Shown here piece by piece: positions 25,061 through 59,275 of a stretch of DNA of 64,000 bases. The notes beneath the pieces were generated by a model. The model searched no databases. It worked only from the letters and a program-made list of their open reading frames with translations, and had not been told where the DNA came from. Position numbers and translations under genes: made by a program. The DNA comes from Azonexus sp. R2A61 (GTDB lineage: Bacteria > Pseudomonadota > Gammaproteobacteria > Burkholderiales > Rhodocyclaceae). Position 1 is the stretch's first letter. Each line of letters begins with the position of its first letter. The stretch is taken from the NCBI RefSeq assembly GCF_021401135.1, contig NZ_JACBFO010000002.1, positions 372,001 through 436,000 on the forward strand, in the 5' to 3' direction.

Positions 25061-25122
25061 CTTGAAACCTCTGAAATTCAGAAACTCATGTTGGTCATTT
25101 CAGTATTTTCAAAACCTGCGAC

Positions 25123-28287: not shown

Positions 28288-28303
28288 GTCGTGCTCCCTC
28301 GCC

Positions 28304-29908: not shown

Positions 29909-29917
29909 GACGAGCTC

Positions 29918-31240: not shown

Positions 31241-31371
31241 CCGATTCTCCAATGATGAAACACACGTTGGGGAATCGGCGGGGCGCTATCCGTTAACGAA
31301 TGGCACGGTACGCATGCGACTCTCAGGCCGCAGCAAACAGAAGTTGGGAGAAAAACGCCCAGCCCCGCCGA

Positions 31372-31716: not shown

Positions 31717-31760
31717 GCGACGAATGGTAACAGAACAAAAGTGATTCAAAAAAACAGGTT

Positions 31761-34001
31761 TCAATCCCCCGAGCGCGGAGTAGCGACTCTCGACATCCGC
31801 AACCCGTTGACGACGACCAGCAGGCTGGCGCCCATATCGGCAAAAACAGCCATCCACATCGTTGCGCTGCCGAAAAGTGCCAATCCCAGAAAGACGATCT
31901 TGATACCCAATGCCAAGGCAATGTTCTGCCACAGAACAGCGTGCGTACGTTGCGACAAGCGAATCGTTTCAGGAATCCGCCGCAGGTTGTCGTTCATGAT
32001 GACAATATCCGCCGCCTCCATCGCCGTATCCGTTCCGGCCGCTCCCATGGCCACCCCGATATCGGCTCGTGCCAAAGCAGGTGCATCGTTGATTCCATCG
32101 CCGGTCATGGCCGTCGAGCCATAGCGTTCTCGCAATTCCTCGATGGCCGCCAGTTTGTCCTCCGGCAAAAGATTTCCGCGGGCATCGTCAATGCCGGCCG
32201 CCTGCGCGATGGCCATTGCCGTAGCCGTGTTGTCGCCCGTCAGCATTACGGACACGACACCCAGTCGACGCAGTTCGGCAACCGCCGTGCGCGAGCTTTC
32301 CTTGATGGTATCGGCAACCGCAAAAATGGCCAGCACCTCACTCTCCGAAGCAAGCAGCGTCACGGTCCGCCCTTGGTTTTCGTGCTCGCTGAGCCGAGCT
32401 TCGATCGCCGGTGTGCATAGCTGGCGTTCCTCGATCAGGCGATGATTTCCCAACATCAGCAATTGCCCGCCCGCAGTGCCCTCGATGCCGCGGCCCGGTA
32501 AAGCCCGGAAATTCTGCAAGTCATCATCCGAAGGAGGTAAGGCAGCAGCAATGGCCCTGGAGACAGGGTGATCGGAATGTCCGGACAAACTGGCGGCCCA
32601 GGATAGAATTTTCGCTTGCGCGATGGTCGACGGCATGATTTCTCGAGCCACCAATTCGGGCTTACCGGCGGTAATGGTTCCTGTCTTGTCGAGGGCGACG
32701 GCGCGCAACTTTCGAGCTTCTTCCAGATAAACCCCACCCTTGATCAGCACACCTCGACGGGCTGCCGCGGCCAAACCACTAACCACGGTTACCGGCGTTG
32801 CGATGACCAAAGCGCAAGGACATGCGATGACCAGTAGGACAAGCGCCTTGTAGATAGCCTGTAAAACACTCCAGTCAAACAGCCACGGTCCCAGCAAAGC
32901 AACGGTCAGGGCTACAACGAAAACAGCCGGGGTGTAGATTTCGGCGAATCGGTCAACAAAACGCTGCGTCGGTGCCCGGGCGCCTTGAGCTTGCTCGACC
33001 GCGGAGATGATGCGGGACAAGGTCGTATTGCCGGAAAGGGCAGTGACTTCGAAAACCAGCATCCCGGTCTCGTTGATGGTGCCGGCGAACAGAAAATCCC
33101 CCATCGACTTGTCGACCGGGATGCTCTCGCCGGTAACCGGTGCTTGATTGACCGCACTGTTTCCGGCAATGACGCGACCATCCAAGGGAATGCGTTCCCC
33201 CGGTTTAACCCTGACCTGGGCACCAAGAAAAACCTGGTCTGCGGGCATTTCACGCCATGCACCATCCATCTGACGAACTTCTGCCGTATCCGGCGCCAGG
33301 GCCAGCAAGCCCTGAATGGCATTGCGCGCCCGGTCCACCGAACGCGCCTCGATGAGTTCGGCGATTGCATAGAGCGCCATGACCATCGCCGCTTCCGGCC
33401 ATTGGCCGATCAGGAAGGCACCGGTCACGGCAACCCCCATCAAGGCATTCATGTTCAACTGACCGCGCCGCAAGGCCACCAAGCCCTTGCGGTAAGTCGA
33501 AAATCCGGAGAAGGCAATCGCCACAGCCGCCAGCACCATACCCAACCCCTTGAACGGCAAGGTGTCGGGTGCAAAGTAATCCAGCGCCTCGGCGGCGACG
33601 GCGAGACACAGGGCAAACACCGCCTTGCCGATTTCGCCGAACCCCGATGGTATTTCGGCGACGGCCTCTTCCACCACGAACTCGGCCTCGAAACCAAGTT
33701 CGCGAATGGCCAGCAAGGCTTGATCCTGAGCGGATTGCGCAGCATCGAACGATAGATTTCGGGCTGTCAGTTCAAAACGCAGCCCACGGATGCCATCGAT
33801 ACCCACCAACGCCTGGCGAATGAGGTTTTCTTCATTCTGGCAATCCATCGCGGGAATGCGCAATGTGCATCGCTTGCCCTGCCGAGTCGATTGGGTTGCC
33901 AAACCAGAGGTCGCACCTGCCGCCGCGACAGCGGCCTCCTCTCGATGACCTCCTGACTCAAGATTCTCCGTGGAAGGAGGCTGTTCATTGATTGGTTGCA
34001 T
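31761..34001 (-). CDS. Zn/Cd/Pb-transporting P1B-type ATPase
   Basis: A 746-residue heavy-metal ATPase. An N-terminal metal-binding domain has the form MDCQNEENLIRQAL, with one Cys and a Glu pair as in the CadA/ZntA group. Eight membrane segments, the transport motif CPCALVIATP, the phosphorylation site DKTGTITAGKPE, MLTGDN and GDGINDAPALA follow in order. Exports Zn(II), Cd(II) or Pb(II) from the cytoplasm to the periplasm, where CzcCBA can carry the ions outward. The ATG at 34001 is preferred to the upstream TTG because GGAG lies eight bases before it. Divergent from the MerR-type gene, with a MerR promoter between. Confidence 0.93.
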   Translation of the reverse strand: MQPINEQPPSTENLESGGHREEAAVAAAGATSGLATQSTRQGKRCTLRIPAMDCQNEENLIRQALVGIDGIRGLRFELTARNLSFDAAQSAQDQALLAIRELGFEAEFVVEEAVAEIPSGFGEIGKAVFALCLAVAAEALDYFAPDTLPFKGLGMVLAAVAIAFSGFSTYRKGLVALRRGQLNMNALMGVAVTGAFLIGQWPEAAMVMALYAIAELIEARSVDRARNAIQGLLALAPDTAEVRQMDGAWREMPADQVFLGAQVRVKPGERIPLDGRVIAGNSAVNQAPVTGESIPVDKSMGDFLFAGTINETGMLVFEVTALSGNTTLSRIISAVEQAQGARAPTQRFVDRFAEIYTPAVFVVALTVALLGPWLFDWSVLQAIYKALVLLVIACPCALVIATPVTVVSGLAAAARRGVLIKGGVYLEEARKLRAVALDKTGTITAGKPELVAREIMPSTIAQAKILSWAASLSGHSDHPVSRAIAAALPPSDDDLQNFRALPGRGIEGTAGGQLLMLGNHRLIEERQLCTPAIEARLSEHENQGRTVTLLASESEVLAIFAVADTIKESSRTAVAELRRLGVVSVMLTGDNTATAMAIAQAAGIDDARGNLLPEDKLAAIEELRERYGSTAMTGDGINDAPALARADIGVAMGAAGTDTAMEAADIVIMNDNLRRIPETIRLSQRTHAVLWQNIALALGIKIVFLGLALFGSATMWMAVFADMGASLLVVVNGLRMSRVATPRSGD

Positions 34002-34021
34002 AACGATCTCCAAGTGATGGC

Positions 34022-34055
34022 ACTATTTGAAACCTTAAAGTCACTTCAAGGTCAA
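34022..34055 (-). promoter_or_regulatory. MerR-type metal-responsive promoter of the P-type ATPase gene
   Basis: On the minus strand a -35 box TTGACC (34055-34050) and a -10-like TCAAAT (34030-34025) are separated by 19 bp, the over-long spacer that MerR-family activators correct by twisting DNA. The dyad ACCTT-N11-AAGGT (34032-34052) sits in the spacer. It lies between the P-type ATPase gene and the divergent MerR-family gene, exactly where a Cd/Pb/Zn-responsive operator is expected. Confidence 0.75.
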
Positions 34056-34085
34056 CTTCCTCATCACCCGTACCAGGAAAAGTCC

Positions 34086-34508
34086 ATGAAAATCGGAGAA
34101 ATCGCCAGACAAGCGGGCACGACTACGGAAACGATCCGTTACTACGAGCAGATCGGACTACTCCCGAAAGCCGTTCGCAGCGAAAGCAACTACCGCGTCT
34201 ACACCTCGACACATCTCGAACGCATGACTTTCATTCGCCATTGCCGCAGTCTGGACATGACACTCGACGAGATTCGCATTCTGCTGCACTTCAAGGCTTC
34301 GCCGGATGAAAACTGCCGCGGTGTGAATCGCTTGCTCGACGAGCATATCGGACATGTCGGACGACGTATCGCCGAACTGCAGGAGTTGGAACGACAACTC
34401 CGGGCATTAAGGCAGTGCTGCCCCGAGGAGAATCTGACGCAACACTGCGGCATCCTTGCCGGACTGTCACAGACAAACGATGGTGAGCCAGCACCGCACA
34501 GGATGTAA
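34086..34508 (+). CDS. cadR: MerR-family Cd(II)/Pb(II)-responsive regulator
   Basis: A 140-residue MerR protein. The winged helix-turn-helix (MKIGEIARQAGTTTETIRYY) and the second DNA-contact region (NYRVYTSTHLERMTFIRHCR) are followed by a dimerisation helix (LLDEHIGHVGRRIAELQELE). Metal-ligand candidates are Cys in DENCRGVN, the CC of LRQCCPEEN and the Cys of QHCGIL, which fits the CadR/PbrR group rather than MerR or CueR. It faces the P-type ATPase gene across a MerR-type promoter. The ATG at 34086 is preceded by an AGGAAAAG ribosome-binding site. Confidence 0.88.
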   Translation: MKIGEIARQAGTTTETIRYYEQIGLLPKAVRSESNYRVYTSTHLERMTFIRHCRSLDMTLDEIRILLHFKASPDENCRGVNRLLDEHIGHVGRRIAELQELERQLRALRQCCPEENLTQHCGILAGLSQTNDGEPAPHRM

Positions 34509-34914: not shown

Positions 34915-35095
34915 AGAGGTCCTGCGCGAAGTCGATGCAATCGACGTAGGCGGCAATCGCGGCGTCGGCGAGCGGCGTTGCGAAACGGCCGAAGCGGTCG
35001 TCGCCGTCGAGCGCCAGCAGGTGACGCAGCACCTTGCGGCGTTGTCGGCCGTCGAGGCGCAGCGGCTGTTGCCAGGCGCGCTCGATCAATCCCAT
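34622..35095 (-). CDS. GNAT-family N-acetyltransferase
   Basis: A 157-residue GNAT-fold protein. Strand/loop elements SGFIHLARFDDFAELGASV, the acetyl-CoA segment GRARQLFRAALAEAQRQGL and the late His/Arg-rich block LAAGHPAARHICRTLGY are visible. The substrate is unknown. It is the last gene of the long minus-strand operon containing nrdB and overlaps the nrdB stop by 10 bp, so translation is probably coupled. A truncated copy lies at 22091-22371. Confidence 0.8.
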   Translation of the reverse strand: MGLIERAWQQPLRLDGRQRRKVLRHLLALDGDDRFGRFATPLADAAIAAYVDCIDFAQDLCFGSVEADGELSGFIHLARFDDFAELGASVSAGCRCQGRARQLFRAALAEAQRQGLREIHLAAGHPAARHICRTLGYSMRESATYPRVRVALAKIAD

Positions 35096-36219
35096 GCCAG
35101 CGCCCCGCCGGTCTGGTACTCGGTGACGCGGGTTTCGAAGAAGTTCTTTTCCTTGCGCAGATTGGCTTGTTCATCGAGCCACGGCAGTCCATTCTCCGCG
35201 CCTGGGAACGGTTCTTCCACACCCACCTGCCGCGCCCGCCGGTTGGCGATGAAGCGGAACTGCTGCACGTGCAGGTCGGCGTTGTAGCCGAGGATGGGGT
35301 CGCGCAGGATGTAGCTGGCGTAGGCGCGTTCGGCGGCTTCGGCTTCGTCCCATAGCTCGCGCAACGCCTGCGGGTCGAGTTCCAGGCCCTCTTCCTTCAA
35401 CAGTTCGCGCACGACGCGGATGCCAAAGGCGCAGTGCAGGACTTCGTCGCGCATGATGTATTGCAGTTGTTCGGCGGCGCCCTTCATCAGGCCGCGCCGT
35501 TGCAGCGCGAAGATCGGGGTGAAGCCGTTGTAGAACCAGCAGCCTTCGAAGATCACCGCGAAGAAGAAGTAGGAGAGCGCGAATTCGTGCAGGTTGGCGC
35601 GGTCGGTGAGGTCGAAGTCGGCGCGCATGACGCGCTCCAGGCGCCGGTTGGCGAGCGCGATCTTGCCGTGGATCTGCGGCACGACGCGGTAGCGGTTGTA
35701 GATTTCCTGCTGGTCGAGGCCGATGCTTTCGATGCAGTGCTGGTAGGTCCAGGTGTGCAGCGCTTCTTCATAGACCTGGCGGGCCTGGTAGATCTGCAGT
35801 TCGGGCGCGCTCATCTTTTCCATCACCGCCAGGCCGATGTTGCGCATGGCCAGGATGTCGGAGGTGGTCAGGTAGGCGAGCACGTTTTCGAAGACGTGGC
35901 GCTCGGCCGGGCTGAGCTTGTGGTGGTAGTCGTGCACGTCCTGCGCCATGCTGATTTCTAGCGGCGTCCAGTGGTTGCGGTTGGCCTTGAGGAAGAACTC
36001 CCAGGCCCACGGATACTTGAACGGCGCGAGCTGGTTGATGTCGGCCTGGCCGTTGACGATGCGCTTGTCGGCGGCGTTGATCGGCGCCAGCGACGGCGTT
36101 GCGGGAATGTTGCGGTCGACCGCGGTTTTTGCCGAATTTCCGGCGTCGACCGCAGGCATGGCCGGCCGGGCGGCGGTTGCCGGCGTATCCCAGTCGTCGA
36201 AGTGGTGTGCGCTGTTCAT
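35086..36219 (-). CDS. nrdB: class Ia ribonucleotide reductase small (beta) subunit
   Basis: A 377-residue radical-generating subunit. Diiron ligands and the Tyr radical site are visible: Glu and His in EEALHTWTYQHC with the radical Tyr, Glu in FEGCWFYNGF, and Glu/His in RDEVLHCAFG. The C-terminal docking tail (TEYQTGGALAWD) is of the usual type. The N-terminal about 65 residues are low-complexity (AVDAGNS, TAVDRNIPATP) and are partly encoded by copies of the GTCGAC palindrome element. Its ATG overlaps the PepSY gene stop by 4 bp, so it is translated as part of that operon. About 10 kb separate it from nrdA, which is unusual. Confidence 0.93.
   Translation of the reverse strand: MNSAHHFDDWDTPATAARPAMPAVDAGNSAKTAVDRNIPATPSLAPINAADKRIVNGQADINQLAPFKYPWAWEFFLKANRNHWTPLEISMAQDVHDYHHKLSPAERHVFENVLAYLTTSDILAMRNIGLAVMEKMSAPELQIYQARQVYEEALHTWTYQHCIESIGLDQQEIYNRYRVVPQIHGKIALANRRLERVMRADFDLTDRANLHEFALSYFFFAVIFEGCWFYNGFTPIFALQRRGLMKGAAEQLQYIMRDEVLHCAFGIRVVRELLKEEGLELDPQALRELWDEAEAAERAYASYILRDPILGYNADLHVQQFRFIANRRARQVGVEEPFPGAENGLPWLDEQANLRKEKNFFETRVTEYQTGGALAWD
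36111..36124. repeat. TGCGGTCGACCGCG palindrome inside the nrdB N-terminal region
   Basis: A copy of the 12-bp palindrome GCGGTCGACCGC within coding sequence. A second half-copy (GTCGACCGCA, 36145-36154) lies beside it with GCCGAATTTCCGGC between. Together they encode the low-complexity N-terminal stretch of NrdB. Other full copies are at 17678, 21936, 34609, 46825 and 50212. Confidence 0.7.
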
Positions 36220-37403
36220 CGTGGGGCCTTTCGGGTTCGAGGGAAGAATTCGGAAGCGGGACGACGGCCGGCCGACGAGCGCCGGCGCCAGACGAGAAAA
36301 CCGCTGACGCAGCTGAGCACCGCGGCCAGCCCGCCGAGCGCGACCGCGATGCGGCCGGGCAGGCCGAAGGCGCTGCCGGTGTGCAGCGGCGTCTGCCAGT
36401 CGAGATAGGTGTCGCCGGCGGCGGCGCGGGTCGCGTCGTAGACCTTCAGCGGCCGGCCATCGCGGCTGTCGACCCAGACCGTGCTGCGCGCCGTCGATGG
36501 CCGGCGGACTTCGCCGGGCAGCCGGATCGACACCGCGTAGGCATCGCCCGGCCGGCGCGGCAGGCCGATCCGGCGCAGTTCGCCGTCGGGAAAGACATCG
36601 CGGGCAACCTGCAGCGCCGCATCGGCGTCGATCTGCGCCGGCCCGTCGGCGCGCGGTATTTTTGGCGCGACGTTGCCGTCGACCGCAAGAACCGTCCCGA
36701 CCAGTTGCCGGACCTCGCCCGGCCAGGCCATGTAGATGCCGCTCAGCGTCACGGCGGCGATCACCGGCGCGCTGTAGAAACCGGCGACGCGGTGCAGGTC
36801 GAAATTGCGCCGGGCCGGGCCGAGGTCGCGGCGAACGGTCAGCCCCAGGCGCAGCTTGCCGCGGCCGGGCCACCACAGGAACAGGCCGAGCGGCAGGCTG
36901 AGCAGCCAGACGATGGCGACGATGCCGAAGCAGCGGCGCCCGGCATCGCCGAGCAGCAGCTTGCCGTGCACTTCGCTGATCAGGTTCATCAGGCCGGGAC
37001 GGTCGGCGCTCAGCCGGGTCCGTTCGCGCTGGCCGAGGACGCGGGCGGTGTAGGGATCGACCAGCACCTGGCGCCAGAAGAAGCCGTCGGTGCGCGTCGG
37101 ATCGTGGTGGCGAAAGAGCACGCCGGTGGCGCCGTCGACGTGGCGTCCGGGAATCAGCGACACCGGCTGCCAGGCTTCGGGCTCGTCGGCCTGGCTGGCG
37201 ACCGCCGCCGCCAGTTGTTCGGTGTAGGGCCGGGAACGGCCGTCGGCCGGCACTGCGACGCGCAGCAGGCCGGGATTGAGCCAGCGGTCGATCTCGTGCG
37301 AGAACACCAGCAGGCTGCCGGTCGACGCCGAAATCAGCACGAAAACCAGCAGCAGCAAGCCGCTGTAGCGATGGACCAGGGCCAGCGAGCGACGCAGCGT
37401 CAA
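36216..37403 (-). CDS. PepSY-associated TM protein (FoxB/PiuB-type reductase family)
   Basis: A 395-residue inner-membrane protein with four predicted helices: HRYSGLLLLVFVLISASTGS near the N-terminus, FGIVAIVWLLSLPLGLFLWW, SAPVIAAVTLSGIYMAW, and a last one near ALGGLAAVLSCVSGFLVW. A conserved HR at the first helix and HGKLLLGDAGRR and FDLHRVAGFY provide His residues suited to haem binding. Family members reduce ferric siderophores in the periplasm. In this operon a corrinoid or its cobalt would be a natural substrate (inference). I place the start at TTG 37403, overlapping the previous stop (TTGA) with GAGGTG upstream. Confidence 0.8.
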   Translation of the reverse strand: MTLRRSLALVHRYSGLLLLVFVLISASTGSLLVFSHEIDRWLNPGLLRVAVPADGRSRPYTEQLAAAVASQADEPEAWQPVSLIPGRHVDGATGVLFRHHDPTRTDGFFWRQVLVDPYTARVLGQRERTRLSADRPGLMNLISEVHGKLLLGDAGRRCFGIVAIVWLLSLPLGLFLWWPGRGKLRLGLTVRRDLGPARRNFDLHRVAGFYSAPVIAAVTLSGIYMAWPGEVRQLVGTVLAVDGNVAPKIPRADGPAQIDADAALQVARDVFPDGELRRIGLPRRPGDAYAVSIRLPGEVRRPSTARSTVWVDSRDGRPLKVYDATRAAAGDTYLDWQTPLHTGSAFGLPGRIAVALGGLAAVLSCVSGFLVWRRRSSAGRRPASEFFPRTRKAPR

Positions 37404-39043
37404 GGCTTCACCTCGCGGAAGCGTCGGGCGCGGTCCCAATCGACGAAGAAGATGCCGCCGGCCGGCGCATTGAAGCTGAACAGCCGCCGGCCATCGACCG
37501 ACACGGCGCTGACGCCGGTCGAGAAATCGAGTTCGGGTTCCGTGCCGCCGCGATTGACAGCGATCAGCGGCAGCCCGGTTTCCCGGCTGCGCTGCTCCCA
37601 GACGTCGCCCGGGCCCATGCCGTCAACCGGCGGCCAGTTGGCCGGCGAGAGCAGGATCTGCGCACCGCGCCCGGCGAGCCTGGCGGCAGTGTCGGGCCGC
37701 CAGGCGTCGGCGCAGATCAGCGTGCCGACCTGGATGCCGTCGACGGTGAACGGCTTGCCGTCGATGCCGGCCACCGACCACGCCTCGGCGCGGCCGACCG
37801 GGCGCTGCTTGCGATAGGCGCCGAGGATGTTGCCGGCGCGGTCGATGGCGGCGACGCTGTTGTGCAGCGTGCCGCTGCCCTTCTCGCGCTCGGCGAAGCC
37901 GACGAAGAGCGCGATGCCGTTGTCGCGGGCGATCGCCGCCAGCGTGTGCATCCAGGCATCGGGGAAAGGCGCGATCCAGCCGGTGCCGACGCGCTTGGCG
38001 AAGTTGTAGCCGGTTTCGGCCAGCTCCGGCGTCACCACCCAGTCGGCACCCTGCCGTGCCGCGGCACGGATGCCGGCCTCGATGCGGGCGCGGTTGCCGG
38101 CGATGTCGCCGGGCGCCGGGTCGAGATGGAGCAAGGCGATGCGCAGGTCGCCAGCGGCCTTGGCCGGGCCGGCGGCGGCATCGGGGAAGCGTTTGGCGCC
38201 GGGCAGGAAGTAGCCGTTCTGCTTGCCCAGCGCCTCGATCACCGCGGCGTGGGTGGCCTTGCCGATCAACTCGCCGATGCGGCTGTGGCCGCCGGTGTAG
38301 GTGGCACGCGGCGCCGCCGTGCCGGAGACGACGATGATGCTGTCGGTACCGGTGCCGGTCGCCTGCACGCCCGGCGTGTAGGTGCTGGCCACCTTGAGGT
38401 CTTCGAGCGCCGCCGTCTTGCCTTCGGTGACGGTGATCAGCGCGCGCGCCAGCGCCGCGTCGCTGAGTTCGATGTTGCTCAGCACCAGGATATTGATCGT
38501 GCCGGCCGGCTTGTCGTCATCGTCGAGTCCTTCGATATGGCTGCCGCTATCGACGCCGGTACGGATCGCGTTGCTGCGCGCGCCGGCGGTGGCCAGCACG
38601 GTCACCGTCAGCGGCCCGTGGCTGCGCGTGACGACGGCCAGATTGTCCATGTCGGCGGCGGTCGCCATCTGCGCCACCGCCGCGCGGGCGAGGCCCAGGC
38701 GGTCGGCCAGCGCATCGCGCACGCCCTCGCTGTAGGCCTTGCCGGCGGCGCCGAGCTTGCCCCAGAGCAGCGGATGCGCCGCGTGGTTGAGCGCGGCGCG
38801 GGCATCGACCAGGCCGTCACTGGTCGACAACGCGCGGCGCACGGTCGGGAAGCGGACCAGCAGCGTCTTTTCCCAGAAGCCGTCGCGTTCGCCGTTAACC
38901 AGCTCGGCGCTGGCCGCCAGCGACTCGGGCAGGACCGGCGCCGGCGGCGCGGCGGCCGAGGCCGACGCGGCGAGCAGCAACCCGGCCAGGCCGGACAGGA
39001 AGTGGCGCCGGGCAAGCGCGGCGAATCGGGCGAACGGGGTCAT
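37400..39043 (-). CDS. exported CbiZ (adenosylcobinamide amidohydrolase)-nitrilase fusion
   Basis: A 547-residue two-domain protein. The N-terminus has a twin-arginine-like signal (LARRHFLSGLAGLLLAASAS). Residues about 35-270 match the CbiZ family (MDNLAVVTRSHGPLTVTVLA, AGTINILVLSN, ITVTEGKTAALEDL), which cleaves the amide linking the nucleotide loop to corrinoids. Residues about 280-545 are a nitrilase/carbon-nitrogen hydrolase with the Glu-Lys-Cys triad visible in TPELAETGY, AYRKQRPVG and GTLICADAWRP. CbiZ is normally cytoplasmic and single-domain, so both export and fusion are odd. Its ATG overlaps the CobN stop (ATGA). Confidence 0.85.
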   Translation of the reverse strand: MTPFARFAALARRHFLSGLAGLLLAASASAAAPPAPVLPESLAASAELVNGERDGFWEKTLLVRFPTVRRALSTSDGLVDARAALNHAAHPLLWGKLGAAGKAYSEGVRDALADRLGLARAAVAQMATAADMDNLAVVTRSHGPLTVTVLATAGARSNAIRTGVDSGSHIEGLDDDDKPAGTINILVLSNIELSDAALARALITVTEGKTAALEDLKVASTYTPGVQATGTGTDSIIVVSGTAAPRATYTGGHSRIGELIGKATHAAVIEALGKQNGYFLPGAKRFPDAAAGPAKAAGDLRIALLHLDPAPGDIAGNRARIEAGIRAAARQGADWVVTPELAETGYNFAKRVGTGWIAPFPDAWMHTLAAIARDNGIALFVGFAEREKGSGTLHNSVAAIDRAGNILGAYRKQRPVGRAEAWSVAGIDGKPFTVDGIQVGTLICADAWRPDTAARLAGRGAQILLSPANWPPVDGMGPGDVWEQRSRETGLPLIAVNRGGTEPELDFSTGVSAVSVDGRRLFSFNAPAGGIFFVDWDRARRFREVKP

Positions 39044-42000
39044 GCTTTTCTCCGGAAACGGGCCCGCGACAACACGCCGAGGGCGACCAGCAGCAAAAAC
39101 CCGAACAATGCCGCGTAACGGGCGCTTTGTGGCAACGGCGATGGACGATTGTCCTGTTCCTTGACCTCGAAGCCTTCGACGACGTCGCTGTTCGCGCTCG
39201 ACGGCGTGGCCTCGGCAGCGGCTTCCGCTTGCCGTACAGCGGCCTGCGCCGGGCCGGGCTGGGCCGCCTGCGCCGCCCGGGCAGTTTGCGCCGGGCGCGC
39301 CGCGGCCGGCGGCAGCGCCGACTGACGGCCCATGTCCGGCGCCGACATCGCCAGCGCCTCGGCCATCGCCTGGCGGTCCTGCGCCTGCGCCAGTTCGCTG
39401 ACCTCGCGGCTGCTGCACGACGCCGCGTTGCAGGCGACGCCGGCTTCGGCGATCACTTGGCGATTGACCTGCTCGAGCTCGGCCTTGACCTTGGGATCGG
39501 CCTGCCAGTAGCCCTTGTTGATCGCCACCAGCATCTTGTCGACGATGGCCTGGTAGGCCAGCAGGTTCTTCGCCTGGCGGAATTTCTCCTTGACGCCGAT
39601 CCGGTTGCGGTCGACCACGTAGGTTTCGTACATTTCCTGCCACTTGGCCCCGTCGACCGCCTCGGGCACGGTGACTTGCCAGCCCCACAGGTGCTCGGTG
39701 ACCTTCATCACGAAGCGGGCGCCGGCGTAGCCTTCGTCGAGCATCGCCCTGACCCATTGCGGATTGGTGTAGCGGGTGCGCATTTCGCGGCCCATGAACT
39801 GGTCGAGCGTCTCGTGCTTGCCACCCTTGGCATCGGCCAGGTTGAGGATGTAGGTCTCCGGCGTCTTGCCGTTGACCTGGCGGATGGCCATCGCCGTCGC
39901 CCCCAGGTACTGGAAGACGTCGTCGTTGTCGAGCGTGCCGAAGACGTTGCTCGAACGCGAGTGGATCGCCGCCTTGGCATCCTTCAGCGCCATCTTGAAC
40001 AGGTCGACGGCAAGCGCCGCGCCGCCCGGCCGGTCGCCCCAGTAACCCTGGCCGAACAAGTGGCCGACACGGTTGAAATAGACATCGGCGATCTGGCTTT
40101 CCTTGTCCCAGGTATTGCTCGCCTGGACCACGTTGTCCACGCCGGTGCCGTAGGCGCCGGACGGTTCGGTGAAGATGCGCACCGCCGCCAGGCGCTCGGC
40201 CTCGGCCGCCGGGATGCCGCGCGCTTCGAGCGCCTGGCGGGTCCGGCGGACGTTGGCGCGGATCGGGTTGTCGGCTTCGTCGAGGTCCTTGACCGCGCTG
40301 ACCGCCTGGTCGAGCAGCAGCATCAGCGTCGGCAGCGCATCACGGTAAAGGCCGGAGGGCACGATGGTGACGTCCACGCGCGGCCGTCCGAGCTCGCCGC
40401 GCGGGATGACCTGCAGCCCGTCGACCCGGCCGCGCTCGTCCCAGGTCGGCCGGACGCCGATCAGCGCCAGGATTTCCGCCTCGGTGACGCCCTCGTGGCG
40501 CATCGCCTCGGTGCTCCACAGGTTGAACACGACGCGGTCGGGAAACTGGCCGTGACGCTGCCGGTAGTCGGCGATGAACTTGTCGGCCAGCGCCCTGCCC
40601 TGCTCCCAGGTACCGGGCGTCGGCAGGCGCGACGGATCGAAGCCGTAGAGATTGCGGCCGCTCGGCAGCGCGGCCGGGTTGCGCAGCGGATCGTTGCCCG
40701 GCCCGGCGGCGACGTGGCGGCCGGCCAGGCCGGCGACCAGCGCGTCGAGTTCGGCGCGGCCGCTGGTTTCGAGCAAGGCCATCAGTTCGTCGACGCGGCG
40801 CGCCCGCTCGGTCGGCGACAGCTTGCCGTCGAGCGCGACGATCGCCTCGGCGGTGGACCGGCGCAGCTTTTCCGGCGGTGCCACGCCGAAGGTATGCAGG
40901 CCGTAGGGCGTCTGCGTCTCGCCGATTTCCTTCAGGTAATGCTCGATCAGTTCGACGTCCTCGCCGTCGACCAGCGCGCTCTTGCCGATGTCCTTGAGCA
41001 CGCCGAGCTTGCCGGCCTGTGCATTGATTTCGGCGAGGCGGGCGGCGGCAGCCGATTCGCTCTTCTGCGCGGCGACCAGGTAATCGTCGATCAGCCCCTT
41101 GAGCATCACCAGTTCGCTGTTCAGCGTCGCCTTGTCGAACGGCGGCGTCAGGTGCGAGATGATCGTCGCCATGCCGCGCCGCTTGGCCTGCAGCGCTTCG
41201 CCGATGTCGTCGACGATGTAGGGGTAGAGCTGCGGCACGTCACCGACCATCGCTTCGCCGGGATCGGCGGCGGTGAAGCCGACTTCCTTGCCGGACAGCC
41301 ATTCGTGCGTCGCATGCGTGCCGACGTGCACCATCGCCTGCGCCTGGAAGCCCTGCTGCAGCCACAGGTAGAAAGCCAGATACTGGTGATGCGGCGGCAG
41401 CGCCACGTCGTGATACATCTTCTTCGGATCGCCTTCCCAGCCGCGCGACGGCTGCGGCGCGAAAACCAGGTTGCCGAAGCGCTGCGCCGGGAAAACGAAG
41501 TGCGGCTTGCCTTTGGCGTCTTTCCACAGCATCACCGTCGACTGCTCCGGCTCGCCCCAGGCCTTGACCATCGCCTCGCGCAACGCCTTCGGCTGCTGGT
41601 CGAACCACTTGCGGTAGTCGGCCACCGGCAGCAGCATCGCGCCACCGCCGCGCACCAGCTTCTCGAGCGCGCCGGGCGCCCAGTTGCCGATGTTGGTGCC
41701 GTGCTCGCGCAGGCGGTCGAACAGCGCTTCCTCGGTCGCCGGCCGGCCCTGCGTCGCGTAGCCCTCGCCTTCCAGGCGGCCGAGGATCTGCCACAGCGAA
41801 CGCGGCAGTACGTTGAGGTAGGCGGCGCCGATGTTCTCCTTGCCCGGCGGATAGTTGTAGTAGATCACCGCGACGCGCTTGTTGCGGTTCAGTTCGTAGC
41901 GCAGCGCCACCCACTTCCGGATGCGGTCGGCCAGGCGCTCGATGCGCTCGGCAATCGGCGCCTCGTTGACGTATTCGAGCCCGGTCGCCGGGTCGCGCAG

Positions 42001-42999
42001 GCGCTCCTTGCTGGCGACCACGGTCGGCGCGATGGCGCCGGCGAACTCGGCGCCGGAAATCTGCCAGGCGCGCTCCATCAGCGTCAGCCCGAGCGGCGAC
42101 GCCTCCCACTCGGCGCGCGACTGGCTGTACAGCGAGATCGCATTGATCGTCGGTACGTCGAGCTTCTGCATCACCGGGATGGTCTTTTCCGGGACGTTGC
42201 CCATTTTCAGCGCCAGGCCGACGACGGCGACGACGCGCGACTTGCCGCCGGCGTCGATCAGGTATTTCTCGACGGCCAGTTCGGACGGATAGCCGAAGGC
42301 CGGCAGCACGTTGAAACCGCGCGCCTCGAGTGCCTCGACCATCGCCAGCAACAGCGGCGAGCGGCCGGACTGGGCGGTCACCCGGTTGAACAGCAGGCCG
42401 ACCCACAGCCGCCCTTCGCGGTCGGGACGGCCCTGCAGGTAGTCGCTGCGGAACGCGTCGAAATCCTCGAAGGTCCGGCCGTTGCGCGGATTCCACAAGG
42501 CCGTCTGGGGATAGGCGCGGGCCGGCGCGGCGGTGACGCGCAAGCCGAAATCGCGGGCCAGCACGCGCCGCACCATCGCCGCGTAGTTGTCGACGCCGCC
42601 GGCCTGCGCGTACTCGCGCAACATCTCGTCGCGCGTCAGGCCAGCCTGCTTCTCGCCCTCCTCGAACGGCGCGCCGACCGCGTAGGCCTTGGCGCCGCGC
42701 GCCTGCAGCCGGGCCACCGCCGGGGTGATCGCGTTGGCCAGTTCGCGGCCCATGTTGTAGATCAGACCGAGATCGGCACTGCCCAGCGCCGCCAGATCCT
42801 CGGCCGACGGCCGCGACGACGAGGCGATGCGGAAACTCACGTCCTTCAGCGCCGGATCGCGGCGCAACTGCTGCACCGCGTTGACCGCCGTCAGCGTCGC
42901 CGGGTCGCCGGGAAAGAGCACGACCGACAAGGGCCTGGCCTGGACCGATGTCACGGTCGACCACAGAAAAAGCAGAAAAACCGCTCGCAGCCAGACCAT
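39040..42999 (-). CDS. CobN/HmuS-like chelatase family protein, exported and membrane-anchored
   Basis: A 1319-residue protein of the CobN/BchH family. Domain landmarks include VAVIYYNYPPGKENIGAAYL, MVHVGTHATHEWLSGKEVGF, LYPYIVDDIGEALQAKRRG, PTLMLLLDQAVSAVKDLDEA and EHLWGWQVTVPEAVDGAKW. Unlike cytosolic cobaltochelatase CobN, it starts with a signal peptide (VFLLFLWSTVTSVQA), and after an Ala/Pro/Gln-rich linker ends with a membrane helix (ALFGFLLLVALGVL) and an RFRRKA basic tail. It should be periplasmic and held in the inner membrane. HmuS proteins of haem-uptake operons have this layout and act as dechelatases. ATG 42999 follows GGAGTAACTTT; the upstream ATG 43020 overlaps the previous gene. 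Confidence 0.9.
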   Translation of the reverse strand: MVWLRAVFLLFLWSTVTSVQARPLSVVLFPGDPATLTAVNAVQQLRRDPALKDVSFRIASSSRPSAEDLAALGSADLGLIYNMGRELANAITPAVARLQARGAKAYAVGAPFEEGEKQAGLTRDEMLREYAQAGGVDNYAAMVRRVLARDFGLRVTAAPARAYPQTALWNPRNGRTFEDFDAFRSDYLQGRPDREGRLWVGLLFNRVTAQSGRSPLLLAMVEALEARGFNVLPAFGYPSELAVEKYLIDAGGKSRVVAVVGLALKMGNVPEKTIPVMQKLDVPTINAISLYSQSRAEWEASPLGLTLMERAWQISGAEFAGAIAPTVVASKERLRDPATGLEYVNEAPIAERIERLADRIRKWVALRYELNRNKRVAVIYYNYPPGKENIGAAYLNVLPRSLWQILGRLEGEGYATQGRPATEEALFDRLREHGTNIGNWAPGALEKLVRGGGAMLLPVADYRKWFDQQPKALREAMVKAWGEPEQSTVMLWKDAKGKPHFVFPAQRFGNLVFAPQPSRGWEGDPKKMYHDVALPPHHQYLAFYLWLQQGFQAQAMVHVGTHATHEWLSGKEVGFTAADPGEAMVGDVPQLYPYIVDDIGEALQAKRRGMATIISHLTPPFDKATLNSELVMLKGLIDDYLVAAQKSESAAAARLAEINAQAGKLGVLKDIGKSALVDGEDVELIEHYLKEIGETQTPYGLHTFGVAPPEKLRRSTAEAIVALDGKLSPTERARRVDELMALLETSGRAELDALVAGLAGRHVAAGPGNDPLRNPAALPSGRNLYGFDPSRLPTPGTWEQGRALADKFIADYRQRHGQFPDRVVFNLWSTEAMRHEGVTEAEILALIGVRPTWDERGRVDGLQVIPRGELGRPRVDVTIVPSGLYRDALPTLMLLLDQAVSAVKDLDEADNPIRANVRRTRQALEARGIPAAEAERLAAVRIFTEPSGAYGTGVDNVVQASNTWDKESQIADVYFNRVGHLFGQGYWGDRPGGAALAVDLFKMALKDAKAAIHSRSSNVFGTLDNDDVFQYLGATAMAIRQVNGKTPETYILNLADAKGGKHETLDQFMGREMRTRYTNPQWVRAMLDEGYAGARFVMKVTEHLWGWQVTVPEAVDGAKWQEMYETYVVDRNRIGVKEKFRQAKNLLAYQAIVDKMLVAINKGYWQADPKVKAELEQVNRQVIAEAGVACNAASCSSREVSELAQAQDRQAMAEALAMSAPDMGRQSALPPAAARPAQTARAAQAAQPGPAQAAVRQAEAAAEATPSSANSDVVEGFEVKEQDNRPSPLPQSARYAALFGFLLLVALGVLSRARFRRKA

Positions 43000-43003
43000 A
43001 AAG

Positions 43004-43345
43004 TTACTCCGCCGGCACATAGACCACCTTGCCGTCCGGCAGCTTGTAGGCCGTGCCCAGGCGCTCGCCCTTGCCCGACAATTTCTGGTCGGTCACTTTC
43101 GAGGCTTTGATCTCCTTGCCCTTCTTGGTGATGATCTCCATCTCGCCGTTGGCGTTCTTCTTGACCATCGTCACCTCGGAGCTCGGGTCGAGCAGGTCCA
43201 TCATGTTGTAGGCCATGAACAGCGCGATCATCATCGAGACGATGAAGACAATGCTCGCGTCGAACAGGTTGGCGACCCCGGCGATCGGGTCTTCGAGGGC
43301 TTCGCCGTCGAGGGCAAAGCGCCTACGCCGCTGCAGCAATCGCAT
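43004..43345 (-). CDS. DUF2149 family membrane protein
   Basis: A 113-residue protein with one membrane helix near residues 30-48 (FDASIVFIVSMMIALFMAYN), preceded by a basic cytoplasmic end with DPIAGVANLFDAS. A Lys-rich periplasmic tail follows (MVKKNANGEMEIITKKGKEI). The single-helix plus periplasmic-domain layout is like ExbD/TolR. DUF2149 genes accompany an ExbB-like gene and a CobN/HmuS-like gene in haem and corrinoid operons, as here. It overlaps the ExbB-like gene by 23 bp and lies 4 bp before CobN. Confidence 0.85.
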   Translation of the reverse strand: MRLLQRRRRFALDGEALEDPIAGVANLFDASIVFIVSMMIALFMAYNMMDLLDPSSEVTMVKKNANGEMEIITKKGKEIKASKVTDQKLSGKGERLGTAYKLPDGKVVYVPAE

Positions 43346-43922
43346 CGTCGGCCTCCGCCTGCAGGTGATGTTCAACGGCGCCGTGACCGACGCCGGCAAT
43401 TGCCAGTTCGGCGGCATGCGCCATCTCGCGCACGTCCTCGCGCGCCCAGCGCTCGCGCGACAGCGCGATCAGGTAGGCGAGCACGCCGGCGCCCAGGCCG
43501 GCCACCGTCGCCGTAAACGCGGTGACCATGCTGCCGGCCATCTTCGGGATGTTGCCCTCGGCCAGCGCGGCCAGCGAGATGCCCATCGGGATCAGCGTGC
43601 CCATCAGGCCGAGCGCCGGACCGACCTTGATCACGAAACGGATGCGGTCGAGCCGGTGCGACAGCGCCAGTTCATGCGCCTGCAACAGGCGCTCGACCTC
43701 GATCGGCAAGGTTCCGGCGGCCGGCCGGATCCGCGCCAGCGCGGCGAAGAACGCCGCCCGCTCGGGGAAACGGCCGCGCCAGCGCTGCCAGGCGTCGAAC
43801 AGCGTGATCCCGAGCTGCACCGGCGTGTAGGCGACAAGCAAGGCGCAGCCGCCGATCACCGGCAGGTAGAGCGCGGTGGAAACCTCGTAGAGCAGGTGCT
43901 CGATCAGTTGAATCAGGTCCAT
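43323..43922 (-). CDS. MotA/TolQ/ExbB proton-channel family protein
   Basis: A 199-residue membrane protein with three helices: ALYLPVIGGCALLVAYTPVQ, FVIKVGPALGLMGTLIPMGI and AFTATVAGLGAGVLAYLIAL. The GPALGLMGTLIPMG and TATVAGLGAG blocks are the ExbB/TolQ channel signatures. With the DUF2149 protein as the ExbD-like partner it could form a proton-driven motor that serves either the TonB-dependent receptor or the CobN-like protein. No tonB gene is in the operon. Twelve bases separate it from the receptor stop. Confidence 0.9.
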   Translation of the reverse strand: MDLIQLIEHLLYEVSTALYLPVIGGCALLVAYTPVQLGITLFDAWQRWRGRFPERAAFFAALARIRPAAGTLPIEVERLLQAHELALSHRLDRIRFVIKVGPALGLMGTLIPMGISLAALAEGNIPKMAGSMVTAFTATVAGLGAGVLAYLIALSRERWAREDVREMAHAAELAIAGVGHGAVEHHLQAEADDAIAAAA

Positions 43923-43934
43923 GACGCTTCTCCG

Positions 43935-45950
43935 TCAGAAATCGTAGCGATAGGCCAGTCGGCCGTTACGGCCGGGCAGCGGGTAACCCGCCTTTTCCCA
44001 ATAGAACCGGTCGAACAGGTTCTCGACCTGCAGCGACACCGACTGATGGCGGTCGATGCGGTAGCGCACGGCCAGGTCGGCGACGGTGAACGGTTCGTAG
44101 GTCACGATGTTGGCGCTGTTGCCGTTCCAGTCGTTGTCGTTCATCCGGCCGACATAGCGGGCGCCAAGGCGGCCGCTCCAGGCACCGTGCTGGACATCGG
44201 CCGCGACCCGCCAGACGTTGCGGGCGACGTTGCGGATGTTCGACGTGGCGCCGGCGATGTCCTCGACACGCTTGAAGTAATGCGTGCCGGACACCGACAG
44301 GGTCAGGAATTCCGCCGCCTGCCAGCGGCCGTCCCACTCCAGGCCTTCCATGCGCGCGCTGTCGGCGTTGGTGTAGGAGAAGTAGCGGTTGTCGACATCC
44401 TCGCCGACCTGCACGCGGGTGATCTTGTCCTTGACCCGCGTCCGGAACACGGTCAGATCGGCGAACAGCTTGCCGGCCGACCATTCCAGGCCGAGGTCCC
44501 AGGTCATGCTGGATTCCGGCCGCAGGCCCGGGTTGCCCGACAGCACGTCGTCCTTGCCGGCCTTGACGGTCACTGCCGAGCCGGTCAGTTCGGTCGCCGA
44601 CGGCGGCACGAAGCCCTTGCCGGCGGTGGCATGCAGGCGCAGGCCGTCGATCAGCCGCTGCTTGAAGCCGATGCTCGGATTGGTCGTGGTGAACGCCGCC
44701 TCGCCCGGCGTGAAGGTGGTCATCAACGGCGTCGAGAAGGTTTCGGTAGTGATCCGGTCATGCCGCAGGCCGAAATCGATACTCGTCGCACCATCGTTGA
44801 GGAACAGCGAGTTCTGCGCGTATAAGCCCAGCGAGCGGCGCTCGTTGTTGGCGCTCGACGGCGCCTTGCCGGTTCCGTTGGCGTTGTAGCTGCGCGTTTT
44901 CTGGCGGGCATTCTCCTGATCGACGCCGAACACCGTCATGCCCCAGTCACTCCACGCCCACTGGTCCTGCAGTTGCCAGCCGTGGAAGCGGAGTTCCTCG
45001 TCGAAACTGCGGAACGGCAGGTAGGGCTGGTCGGCCAGCGTGGTGCTGCTCTTCTTGTACAGCTGGTAGGACTGCTCGCCGGCAAAGGCGCGCGCGGTCA
45101 GGCGATGGGCGCCGAGACGGCCGGTCAGCTTCAGGTCGTGGCTGTTGCGATCCATGTCCTTGTTGCTCTGCGCATTGGTGCCGTTGGCCAGATCGCCCGG
45201 CGTGGCAATGTTGCGACCGCGGTACAGGTCGCTGTTGAGCACCAGGCGCCAGTCCTCGGTCAGGTTGAAACCCAGGCGCAGCGCGTGGTTCTGCTGCGTG
45301 TAAGCGGTATTCGGGCGGTCGACGCCGTTACCCATGCGAAAATCGTCGTTCTGGTCGAAATAGGAACCGCTGTAGTCGAAGTCGAACCACTTCGACAGCG
45401 CGCCGCCGACACCGCCGCGCAGTTCGCGCGTGTCGAAACTGCCGTAGCCGAGTTGGGCGAAACCGCCCAGCGCGCCGCGGCTTTCCCGGGTGATCAGATT
45501 GACCACGCCGCCCATCGCCGACGAACCGTAAAGCGCCGACGCCGGCCCTTTCAGCACTTCGACACGCTCCAGCCGGTCGATGTTGACCAGGCTGAGGTTG
45601 GTGGCCATCGCCGGCCGGCCATCGACCAGCAGCAGCGAACGCTTGTTGATGCCGGAAAACTCGGGCCGGAAACCGCGGATGCCGATCCCCGACGAATTGC
45701 CCGGATACTGGATGATGTCGACGCTGCTGTTCTTCTTCAGCAGATCGCTCAGTTCGCGGGCCGGCGTGCGCTCGATGTCGGTCTTGCCGATCACCTCGAT
45801 ACGCTGCGGCGTATCCTCCAGCCGCGCCTCGGCACGGCGGCCGGTCACCACCACCGTTTCCAGGTTGGTGACGTCGTCGGCCAGGGCGCCGATCGGCAAT
45901 GCCGCCAGCGTGACGGCCCAGAAACTGCGTTTGCGTAAGAATCGATTCAT
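43935..45950 (-). CDS. TonB-dependent outer-membrane receptor, BtuB-like
   Basis: A 671-residue receptor with a signal peptide (FWAVTLAALPIGALA) and a TonB box (ETVVVTG). The plug domain contains SDLLKKNSSVDIIQYPGN, SLLLVDGRPA, IERVEVLKGP-type ERVEVLKGPASALYGSSAMG and GGVVNLIT. A 22-strand barrel ends in GRLAYRYDF. Size suits BtuB/haem-receptor-type proteins rather than larger siderophore receptors. The cobalamin riboswitch upstream of the operon and the CbiZ domain downstream point to a corrinoid substrate; the Hmu-like neighbours leave haem or another tetrapyrrole possible. Confidence 0.9.
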   Translation of the reverse strand: MNRFLRKRSFWAVTLAALPIGALADDVTNLETVVVTGRRAEARLEDTPQRIEVIGKTDIERTPARELSDLLKKNSSVDIIQYPGNSSGIGIRGFRPEFSGINKRSLLLVDGRPAMATNLSLVNIDRLERVEVLKGPASALYGSSAMGGVVNLITRESRGALGGFAQLGYGSFDTRELRGGVGGALSKWFDFDYSGSYFDQNDDFRMGNGVDRPNTAYTQQNHALRLGFNLTEDWRLVLNSDLYRGRNIATPGDLANGTNAQSNKDMDRNSHDLKLTGRLGAHRLTARAFAGEQSYQLYKKSSTTLADQPYLPFRSFDEELRFHGWQLQDQWAWSDWGMTVFGVDQENARQKTRSYNANGTGKAPSSANNERRSLGLYAQNSLFLNDGATSIDFGLRHDRITTETFSTPLMTTFTPGEAAFTTTNPSIGFKQRLIDGLRLHATAGKGFVPPSATELTGSAVTVKAGKDDVLSGNPGLRPESSMTWDLGLEWSAGKLFADLTVFRTRVKDKITRVQVGEDVDNRYFSYTNADSARMEGLEWDGRWQAAEFLTLSVSGTHYFKRVEDIAGATSNIRNVARNVWRVAADVQHGAWSGRLGARYVGRMNDNDWNGNSANIVTYEPFTVADLAVRYRIDRHQSVSLQVENLFDRFYWEKAGYPLPGRNGRLAYRYDF

Positions 45951-46105: not shown

Positions 46106-46218
46106 TCACTGGCAGGCCTCGCACTCCGGATTGTGGCTACGGCCGCTCGCCGTCGCTCGCTTGACCCGGCAAGCCGGGTCAGCCTGCACCGCAATCCGTC
46201 GAACGAGCTTGGCGGGTT

Positions 46219-46228
<10 letters not shown>
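46106..46228 (-). CDS. 40-codon ORF repeating the NrdA C-terminal tail
   Basis: It starts at an ATG overlapping the nrdA stop (10-bp overlap, different frame). It is rich in Lys/Arg/Ala/Val and ends in HNPECEACQ, where NrdA ends in DNPECEACQ. At the DNA level about 25 bases around the two tails are nearly identical, lying 113 bp apart in direct order. The NrdA tail carries the redox-active Cys pair (CEAC) that re-reduces the active site. The small ORF could be a residual duplication or a peptide mimic of that tail. No obvious ribosome-binding site besides coupling to nrdA. Confidence 0.45.
46161..46180. repeat. perfect inverted repeat downstream of nrdA
   Basis: TGACCCGGC and GCCGGGTCA (46161-46169 and 46172-46180) are separated by AA: a 9-bp perfect stem with a two-base centre. 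It lies inside the 40-codon ORF after nrdA. There is no T-run, so it is not a normal terminator; it may be an mRNA processing or stability hairpin separating nrdA from the transport genes. Confidence 0.7.
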
Positions 46229-48996
<2,768 letters not shown>

Positions 48997-49159
48997 GACG
49001 TTGCTCCGTATCGGGGGGCGGAGCAAAGCCGGCGCGTGCCGCACGCGAACGGACGCACGCCGGCCACGGCCGGTTGCGGTCGACGATCACGAACGAGCAA
49101 AAATGCGGTCACGCAAACACCTTTCGCCAGGGACACCCCGCCCCATCGTTGGTTGGAAG

Positions 49160-49325
49160 GACGTTGCGGCAGGTCTCCTGGCTCTCGGCTCGACGCGCTC
49201 CGTCCGCCTTCCCGGTACAAACCAGTGGCCAGATTGGCGAAGCGCTCGCCGATTACAGTTGCGGGGGCAGCCCCGGGATTCGCGTCGTGCAACGCGTCAC
49301 CGGATTCCCGTTTTAATCCCCGGGC
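49160..49325 (-). promoter_or_regulatory. cobalamin (AdoCbl-type) riboswitch
   Basis: On the minus strand the conserved elements appear in order: the 5' GGGAATCCGGTG stretch (about 49310), the core GGCTGCCCCCGCAACTGTAA (49275-49251 region), the CCACTG and GGGAAGG elements (about 49225-49205), and the 3' B12 box AGCCAGGAGACCTGCC (49183-49168). All parts of the class are present and spaced normally. It precedes nrdA and, by uninterrupted same-strand gene order, the receptor, CobN-like, CbiZ and nrdB genes. B12 binding should switch the downstream genes off. Confidence 0.95.
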
Positions 49326-49461
49326 GGGGAACCATCAACGGGGCGCAGTGTAGGCGGGCCGGGATTCGCCTGTCAAGAAGCGGACACAATCGGTAGTAAG
49401 CGAACCCATCCCGACGACTATATCTAGTTGGCCGCGGCAAATGCAGCCGTCCGCCGAAGCT

Positions 49462-49631: not shown

Positions 49632-50153
49632 ATGGCCAGCATCGGCATCTTCTACGGCAGCAGTTCCGGCGTCACCAAGGCGGTGGCCGAGCAAATCGCC
49701 GAAGCCTTCGACGTCGAGGACTTCAACGTCTTCAACATGGAAGAGGACTTCACCGACTTCGACGACATGCTGGCTTTCGACGTCCTGATCTTCGGCTGCT
49801 CGACCTGGGGCTCGGGCGAAGTGCAGAACGACTGGCGCGATCCGCTGCTTGACCTCGACAACGACAAGCCGTCCTTCGCTGGCAAGACCATCGCCGTGTT
49901 CGGCGCCGGCGACTACAAGGCGCACGGCGAACAGTTCGTCAGCGCGCTGGGCATCCTGCACGACAAGTTCAAGGCACGCGGCGCCACGCTGGTCGGCAGC
50001 TTCCCGACCGACGGCTACACCTACACCTACTCCTTCGCCGAGCGCGACGGCAAGTTCGTCGGCTTCCCGTTCGACAACATCAACGAGGAAGACAAGACGC
50101 CGGCCCGCCTGGCCGCCTGGATCGACAGCCTGAAGGGCGAACTCGACCTGTAA
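49632..50153 (+). CDS. nifF: flavodoxin, probably NifF
   Basis: A 173-residue long-chain flavodoxin. The FMN phosphate loop is FYGSSSGVTKAVAEQIAE near residue 7, the first aromatic isoalloxazine loop is STWGSGEVQNDW, and the GAGDYKAHGEQFVSALG block with the long-chain insert (YTYTYSFAERDGKFVGFPFD) follows. Highly acidic, as electron carriers to nitrogenase reductase are. The NifA site and sigma-54 promoter directly upstream make expression under nitrogen-fixing conditions likely, which is the reason for the nifF symbol. GGAAACC precedes ATG 49632. Confidence 0.87.
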   Translation: MASIGIFYGSSSGVTKAVAEQIAEAFDVEDFNVFNMEEDFTDFDDMLAFDVLIFGCSTWGSGEVQNDWRDPLLDLDNDKPSFAGKTIAVFGAGDYKAHGEQFVSALGILHDKFKARGATLVGSFPTDGYTYTYSFAERDGKFVGFPFDNINEEDKTPARLAAWIDSLKGELDL

Positions 50154-58208: not shown

Positions 58209-58211
58209 ATC

Positions 58212-58670: not shown

Positions 58671-58701
58671 GCCGCCTGGTCGCAGCCCAAGGGAGAAAAC
58701 C

Positions 58702-59268: not shown

Positions 59269-59275
59269 TCGGCTG

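Follow-up and report, generated by a model that had tools for sequence, protein, structure and literature searches.

The 64,000-nucleotide (nt) stretch of Azonexus sp. R2A61 analyzed here (contig NZ_JACBFO010000002.1, positions 372,001 to 436,000; hereafter the window) carries on its minus strand a unit composed of a TonB-dependent receptor, an ExbB-type channel, a DUF2149 protein and a CobN-type chelatase subunit that is predicted to be exported and membrane-anchored. We tentatively read this unit and its neighbors as a periplasmic corrinoid-metallation module, which would be switched on when B12 is low and driven by the proton motive force. A first-pass annotation of the window had already proposed a haem-type receptor/ExbB/DUF2149/CobN module retuned to corrinoids, and this interpretation was partly supported. 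The module itself is real, with Pfam matches to all four members, and the gene set is larger than first described. The features concerned are the following.

49152..49351, minus strand: cobalamin riboswitch aptamer (Rfam RF00174, 109.8 bits over the whole model; gathering score 31.5)
46219..48996, minus strand: nrdA, class I ribonucleotide reductase large subunit (NF005544, 1662.6 bits; cut-off 965)
46106..46157, minus strand: repeated 3' end of nrdA (52 nt; 75% alike by sequence comparison)
43935..45950, minus strand: TonB-dependent receptor (PF00593, PF07715)
43323..43922, minus strand: MotA/TolQ/ExbB-type channel (PF01618, 42.9 bits versus a cut-off of 22.9)
43004..43345, minus strand: DUF2149 protein, one membrane helix and a small beta domain (PF09919, 113 bits)
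39040..43020 (likely start 42999), minus strand: CobN-type chelatase subunit, export-like and membrane-anchored by prediction (PF02514, 1017.6 bits)
37400..39043, minus strand: fusion of CbiZ and a C-N hydrolase of amidase/nitrilase type, export-like (PF01955, 163.3 bits, cut-off 27; PF00795, 94.2 bits)
36216..37403, minus strand: PepSY_TM membrane protein, a candidate reductase (PF03929, 215.8 bits)
35086..36219, minus strand: nrdB, class I ribonucleotide reductase small subunit (NF005550, 355 bits; cut-off 309)

The minus-strand order is thus riboswitch, nrdA, receptor, ExbB, DUF2149, CobN, CbiZ-amidase, PepSY and nrdB. The B12 riboswitch expected from the first pass is present, though directly upstream of nrdA and approximately 3.2 kilobases (kb) ahead of the receptor. 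The CbiZ domain, likewise expected in the operon, proved real, but lies at 39043-37400, outside the interval that had been annotated. Receptor and ExbB are separated by 12 nt, and from ExbB through nrdB neighboring genes overlap or nearly touch, while neither a promoter-like nor a terminator-like site was found in the spacer of approximately 270 nt between nrdA and the receptor. The whole set, from riboswitch to nrdB, looks like one B12-controlled operon. The 3' end of nrdA is duplicated, the copies lying 113 nt apart (46106-46270) and the second one inside this spacer, which fits a rearrangement that placed the module between nrdA and nrdB; the duplicated end is a possible scar of that event. 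In Azospira oryzae (L010) and in locus L011, nrdA and nrdB are adjacent behind one riboswitch, and the receptor has a separate one.

Export of the CobN protein is predicted from hydropathy, in agreement with the N-terminal signal and C-terminal helix described before. Its N terminus is hydrophobic and ends in VQA-RP, a membrane-like stretch lies at the C terminus, and the ATG at 42999, preceded by GGAG, is probably the start in preference to 43020. For comparison, 27 titled relatives were combined with loci from class, family and phylum searches, in which PF02514 was found in 20 of 140 class genomes and 35 of 121 family genomes and DUF2149 in 19 of 397 phylum genomes, the own genome counted. 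From 111 matches, 104 CobN-type genes were kept after dropping fragments (L028, two in L032, L081), duplicates (L168 of L010, L169 of L011) and L150, which is cut by a contig end. Predicted from their sequence ends, 84 are exported, 18 cytosolic and two neither (L166, L173).

The exported forms, including the haem dechelatase HmuS, constitute one clade with a Shimodaira-Hasegawa-like (SH) support of 0.928 (FastTree, 106 rows) and an ultrafast bootstrap of 99 (IQ-TREE, 53 of the 106 rows), and cytosolic CobN falls outside. The phylogenetic check suggested in the first pass therefore places the window protein with this clade, not with ordinary CobN. The window clade reached an SH support of 1.0 with 11 rows and a bootstrap of 71 with the 8 rows kept. 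A wider group of the window, L016/L026, L007 and delta branches was supported by 1.0 and 100, respectively; HmuS lies outside it, and its own position within the exported clade is unsettled. The delta clade denotes records titled deltaproteobacteria, Thermodesulfobacteriota, Syntrophus or Methylacidiphilum. A separate exported CobN of approximately 1410-1570 amino acids, with Asn-Asp and Asp at the triad, forms the N-D-D clade (L075-L080, L171-L174, L177, L185, L188, L190), and a riboswitch lies upstream in 11 of its 14 members.

The ExbB/DUF2149 pair, which the first pass had suspected of energizing the chelatase, accompanies exported, not cytosolic, CobN. Both genes lie within 5 kb of 79 of the 84 exported genes versus 0 of the 18 cytosolic ones (Fisher p = 7e-16, uncorrected for relatedness). 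Leaving out 17 exported genes from loci drawn by DUF2149, the pair is found at 62 of 67 exported versus 0 of 18 cytosolic genes, and when the count is restricted to the host genome and the titled relatives, it is near 26 of 28 exported genes. This split bears on whether the proton motive force can power a class I chelatase. DUF2149 possesses a single membrane helix with an invariant Asp29 among 25 sequences compared; its structure model, with a mean predicted local distance difference test score (pLDDT) of 63 and helix 20-51 as the best part, was too weak for a fold search. A role of the pair as a TonB motor is less likely, given that separate ExbD genes lie within 4 kb of 4 of the 104 CobN genes (L013, L020, L027 and L170 by motif, with Pfam confirming L170). 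The occurrence of DUF2149 in Methanosarcina acetivorans, which has no outer membrane, also counts against such a role; this argument draws on the four ExbD loci and M. acetivorans, and other loci may keep such a role.

The active site of the window protein is of CobN type, as judged by alignment with HmuS (9d26). The His538/Glu577 dyad of HmuS is present as His569 and Glu608, although this dyad is common to the whole superfamily. In contrast, Asp1208-His1209 and Glu1212 of HmuS read Asp-Asp and Gln in the window protein (D1033-D1034-Q1037), as in CobN 7c6o, so that its catalytic triad is D/D/Q versus D/H/E in HmuS. The haem ligand His254 of HmuS is replaced by Met273, and between two aligned stretches there is no counterpart of HmuS residues 694-876, apparently a Met-rich insertion. 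Of the 84 exported genes, 7 have D/H/E, and a riboswitch or CbiZ lies near none of them (0 of 7); D/D/Q is found in 54, with a riboswitch, CbiZ or both near 17 of them. A Cys pair near the C terminus was present in 29 of 86 exported genes (with a hydrophobic C terminus as the sole criterion) and in 0 of 18 cytosolic ones; as just 29 of the 86 carry it, it is no general mark of export.

The tie to corrinoids drawn in the first pass is supported by the riboswitch, by the CobN-type active site and by export-like CbiZ, which occurs at nine loci and at one of these is joined to a BtuF-type domain. A riboswitch within 9 kb upstream or a CbiZ within 9 kb was found for 9 of 11 window-clade genes, 5 of 6 in the delta clade and 12 of 14 in the N-D-D clade, compared with 0 of 7 in the L007 clade. 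Riboswitches in loci without an Rfam scan rest on an nhmmer profile, which recovers 28 of 28 known sites, 26 of which were used to build it, and yields no extras in 38 Rfam-scanned loci; a regular expression recovered 0 of the 28 and was dropped. Immediately ahead of the unit, the riboswitch precedes the receptor in L010, L011, L018, L019, L024, L025 and L033; in L013, L014 and L021 it precedes CbiZ, which is followed by the receptor. No nrdAB was found in the fetched stretch of L013, L014, L018, L019, L021, L024, L025 and L033. A riboswitch serving nrdAB alone was rejected as a general account, because in these relatives it precedes the unit and no nrdAB was detected in the vicinity.

Known CbiZ enzymes are cytosolic. 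The window fusion begins with an RR-x-F-L stretch followed by a hydrophobic stretch, and, judged by eye as in this case, export-like CbiZ occurs in the window, L012, L013, L014, L018, L021, L025, L033 and L170, among which L013/L170 and L014/L021 are close pairs. Four other CbiZ matches show no clear signal (the second copies in L013 and L170, L024 and L078). The CbiZ of L033 forms one protein with a BtuF-type binding domain (PF01497). Genes matching PF01497, PF01032 and ABC_tran are also present in L170, together with another CbiZ copy and a genuine ExbD. L013, nearly a twin of L170, carries a gene for cobalt uptake by CbiM next to its unit. A Glu-Lys-Cys triad, which we take to be the catalytic triad of the nitrilase family, is found in all four aligned CbiZ-amidase fusions. 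In the delta-clade units L018, L019, L022, L024 and L033, a predicted DUF2162 transporter lies between receptor and ExbB, assigned by Pfam in L018 and L024 and by similarity in L019, L022 and L033.

The host genome (3.73 Mb, 13 contigs, 99.99% complete) has as its closest named relative found an uncultured Dechloromonas, with a CobN 93% identical. It holds three CobN-type genes, all export-like, in the window, L007 and L006. The L007 unit comprises receptor, ExbB, DUF2149 and CobN without a riboswitch; that of L006 (8464-14130) comprises a riboswitch, a ZrgA-type zinc uptake protein (PF10986), an ExbB-like protein, DUF2149 and CobN. CbiC and CbiJ were the corrin-ring genes tested. CbiC (PF02570) had no match in the host and a match in 6 of 8 genomes searched, and CbiJ was not found either; as CbiJ is also absent from 3 relatives having CbiC, its absence says little. 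Loss of corrin-ring synthesis by the host is likely, but not proved, from these gene searches. CbiB (299 bits), CobQ (651 bits) and the B12-dependent NrdJ (606 bits) matched, and CobD, CobT and a second GATase_3/CbiA protein of CobB type are present as well. A BtuC-type permease lies beside another riboswitch-led receptor (L201).

A partner of CobST/ChlID type was sought with TIGR02442, the CobS and CobT models themselves not being run, and the best host score (G000) was 26.1 bits. Three relatives with the unit reached 39.1, 29.8 and 20.1 bits, compared with 306-807 bits in six genomes whose CobN is cytosolic, two of which pass the curated cut-off; there, the match lies within approximately 6 kb of CobN in five of six genomes and approximately 60 kb away in G052. 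The host thus appears to have no clear CobST/ChlID partner. The first pass had named a cytosolic location and the presence of cobS/cobT as reasons to abandon its idea; hydropathy points to export, and TIGR02442 stays at or below 26.1 bits.

With gene content, export-like ends, the family tree, co-occurrence and active-site residues as the basis, we infer the substrate, the coupling and each reaction with its direction as follows. The receptor would carry corrinoids across the outer membrane into the periplasm, where the PepSY protein would reduce the corrinoid cobalt, the exported CbiZ would remove the nucleotide loop and the fused amidase would hydrolyze a further amide. The exported CobN would then insert or exchange the metal, energized by the proton motive force via ExbB/DUF2149 instead of the AAA+ ATPase CobST. 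The product may enter the cytosol via a BtuC-type importer, to be rebuilt by CbiB, CobD and CobT. For this organism we give metal insertion or repair a slight preference over removal, because the active site is CobN-like, because cobalamin riboswitches activate genes under B12 shortage, and because the host is perhaps unable to build released cobalt into a new ring. Cobalt is hard to remove from corrins. Should the substrate be a corrinoid, B12 would be remodeled in the periplasm, a step missing from the salvage schemes in the literature extracts consulted.

Several observations weigh against this corrinoid-metallation reading. Removal of the metal is favored by the two hydrolases, by CbiK and by the precedent of HmuS. 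The receptor scored higher with the haem model TIGR01785 (260.8 bits) than with the B12 model TIGR01779 (171.6 bits), both under cut-off, the haem ligand Met79 of HmuS is kept as Met90 in the window CobN, and the best Protein Data Bank match by sequence is HmuS (473 bits versus 421 and 406 for CobN). The predicted structure of residues 27-1215 (mean pLDDT 82.1, predicted template modeling score 0.75) matched CobN 7c6o with Z 43.1 (root-mean-square deviation 4.8 Å, 1038 residues aligned), ChlH 6ytj with Z 39.9 (11.4 Å, 997) and HmuS 9d26 with Z 36.4 (4.6 Å, 1081). Foldseek gave near-equal matches to CobN and HmuS, with query template modeling scores (TMq) of 0.75 and 0.79. The fold thus assigns the protein to the superfamily without singling out one of its members. 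The D/D/Q triad also occurs in 37 exported genes without a nearby riboswitch or CbiZ. In L009, which is 93% identical, no CbiZ-amidase lies between CobN and PepSY, hence this part is dispensable. G128, the other genome without a CbiC match, has a cytosolic CobN nonetheless, which makes CbiC absence alone weak evidence on ring synthesis. With regard to the power source, five exported genes have no close ExbB and DUF2149 (L017 at a contig end, L143, the second copies in L146 and L152, and L035). One of the 18 DUF2149-drawn regions, L179, has the pair (9076-9945) and no CobN in the 19 kb fetched, and a profile comparison of DUF2149 with ExbD gave 1.9%, which is not significant.

Among the alternatives, the harvest of cobalt or corrinoid by dechelation survives best, although we consider it unlikely. 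Here, CbiZ, amidase and CobN would run late aerobic B12 steps backwards in the periplasm and release cobalt, or a corrin without metal, by analogy with the release of iron from haem by HmuS. Each of the two hydrolase reactions goes one way only, HmuS, which belongs to the same exported clade, is a dechelatase (PMC12583661), CbiK comes right after CobN in L017, L028 and L033, and the predicted transporter DUF2162 in five loci and CbiM beside the unit in L013 fit as well. However, the CobN-like active site argues against harvest, and demetallating B12 under B12 shortage would be odd in a genome without a CbiC match, which possibly cannot reuse the cobalt.

It is rather improbable that the periplasmic CobN is a non-catalytic corrinoid carrier whose release is driven by ExbB/DUF2149, leaving CbiZ as the sole chemistry. 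CobN co-purifies with its corrin substrate (PMC7689651), and L033 fuses a BtuF-type domain to CbiZ; however, His569, Glu608 and D/D/Q are retained, and the host has the other riboswitch-led receptor beside a BtuC-type permease. We hold it quite improbable that an HmuS-like haem dechelatase provides the iron for the di-iron NrdB once lack of B12 makes the cell turn to the class I reductase. In favor of this are the position inside the nrdA-nrdB pair, a receptor closest to haem models, HmuS as best sequence match, the kept Met90 and the PepSY gene. Against this stand the relatives with the unit behind a cobalamin riboswitch and no nrdAB found nearby, the exported CbiZ, and the absence of equivalents of His254, His1209, Glu1212 and the Met-rich insert. 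A standard cobaltochelatase subunit CobN working in aerobic de novo B12 synthesis, to which PF02514 and the CobN-type residues would correspond, was rejected as scarcely credible in view of the separate clade, the export-like ends and the lack of a clear CobST/ChlID partner, in addition to the missing CbiC match.

The hmu operon of Bacteroidota, with the haem dechelatase HmuS (PMC12583661), is ordered HmuY, receptor, CobN-like HmuS, HmuT, ExbB-like and DUF2149 (PMC10434189, PMC13227078). The window shares the CobN-type fold, export and anchor (predicted here), receptor, ExbB-like protein and DUF2149 with it, and further the exported clade, Met79 and the C-terminal Cys pair. The first-pass claim that the Hmu arrangement is reproduced thus holds for these components, but not for their order, which is receptor, ExbB, DUF2149 and CobN, and neither HmuY nor HmuT was recognized among the genes of the window. 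The window CobN also differs in having no equivalents of the Met-rich insert, His254, His1209 and Glu1212, and its operon adds riboswitch and CbiZ. With cytosolic CobN (7c6o, 9uk9, 9fpc) it shares the fold (Z 43.1 to 7c6o), D/D/Q and the active-site His and Glu; unlike these, it is export-like, belongs to its own clade and has ExbB/DUF2149 instead of a clear CobST partner. The CbiZ fusion has the PF01955 domain of the adenosylcobinamide amidohydrolase CbiZ, but differs in its export-like N terminus and fused C-N hydrolase.

A corrinoid link of CobN-like units has been suggested before, and the first-pass idea overlaps with PMC10100974, PMC3403914 and PMC6460266. As described in the extract of PMC6460266, which credits the name to a 2003 paper, BtuS is a PF02514 protein that is exported and distinct from CobN and ChlH; the window CobN carries PF02514, is exported by prediction and is distinct from both. 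Some hmu-like operons bear a cobalamin riboswitch and may serve cobalamin metabolism (PMC10100974), and Geobacter lovleyi has a cobN-exbB-exbD-tonB cluster, located in a B12 region that lacks cobST (PMC3403914). PMC8620254 repeats a speculation that genes of this kind put cobalt into cobalamin taken up by the cell. In the BtuS family, the hmu-like operons and G. lovleyi, as in the window, a CobN-like protein is tied to a receptor and B12 genes; compared with what the extracts describe, the window adds the exported CbiZ-amidase, PepSY and the nesting between nrdA and nrdB. Pseudomonas aeruginosa has a Zur-controlled receptor/cobN-like/ExbD cluster, which suggests that CobN-like genes beside receptors may serve several metals. 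Neither an exported CbiZ nor a CobN motor appeared in the titles and abstracts listed by literature searches on CbiZ and on DUF2149. Several parts and the likely power source seem new. A wider proposal is doubtful at present: exported class I chelatases in general would draw their energy from an ExbB/DUF2149 stator, in place of an AAA+ ATPase, and CbiZ, a side-chain amidase and a CobN driven by the proton motive force would jointly form a periplasmic line for B12 disassembly (or reassembly), undoing the CbiB, CobQ and CobNST steps.

Elsewhere in the window, a flavodoxin gene (49632-50150, plus strand) is divergent from the cobalamin riboswitch. The stretch 22881-34505 has a lower G+C content (0.46-0.60) and encodes an EptA/EptB-type phosphoethanolamine transferase, a resistance-nodulation-division (RND) efflux triad, a P-type ATPase and a MerR regulator; from this content it looks like a metal-efflux island. 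Finally, 55908-64000 contains nitrogenase-type genes (PF00148, PF02579) and a class V aminotransferase.

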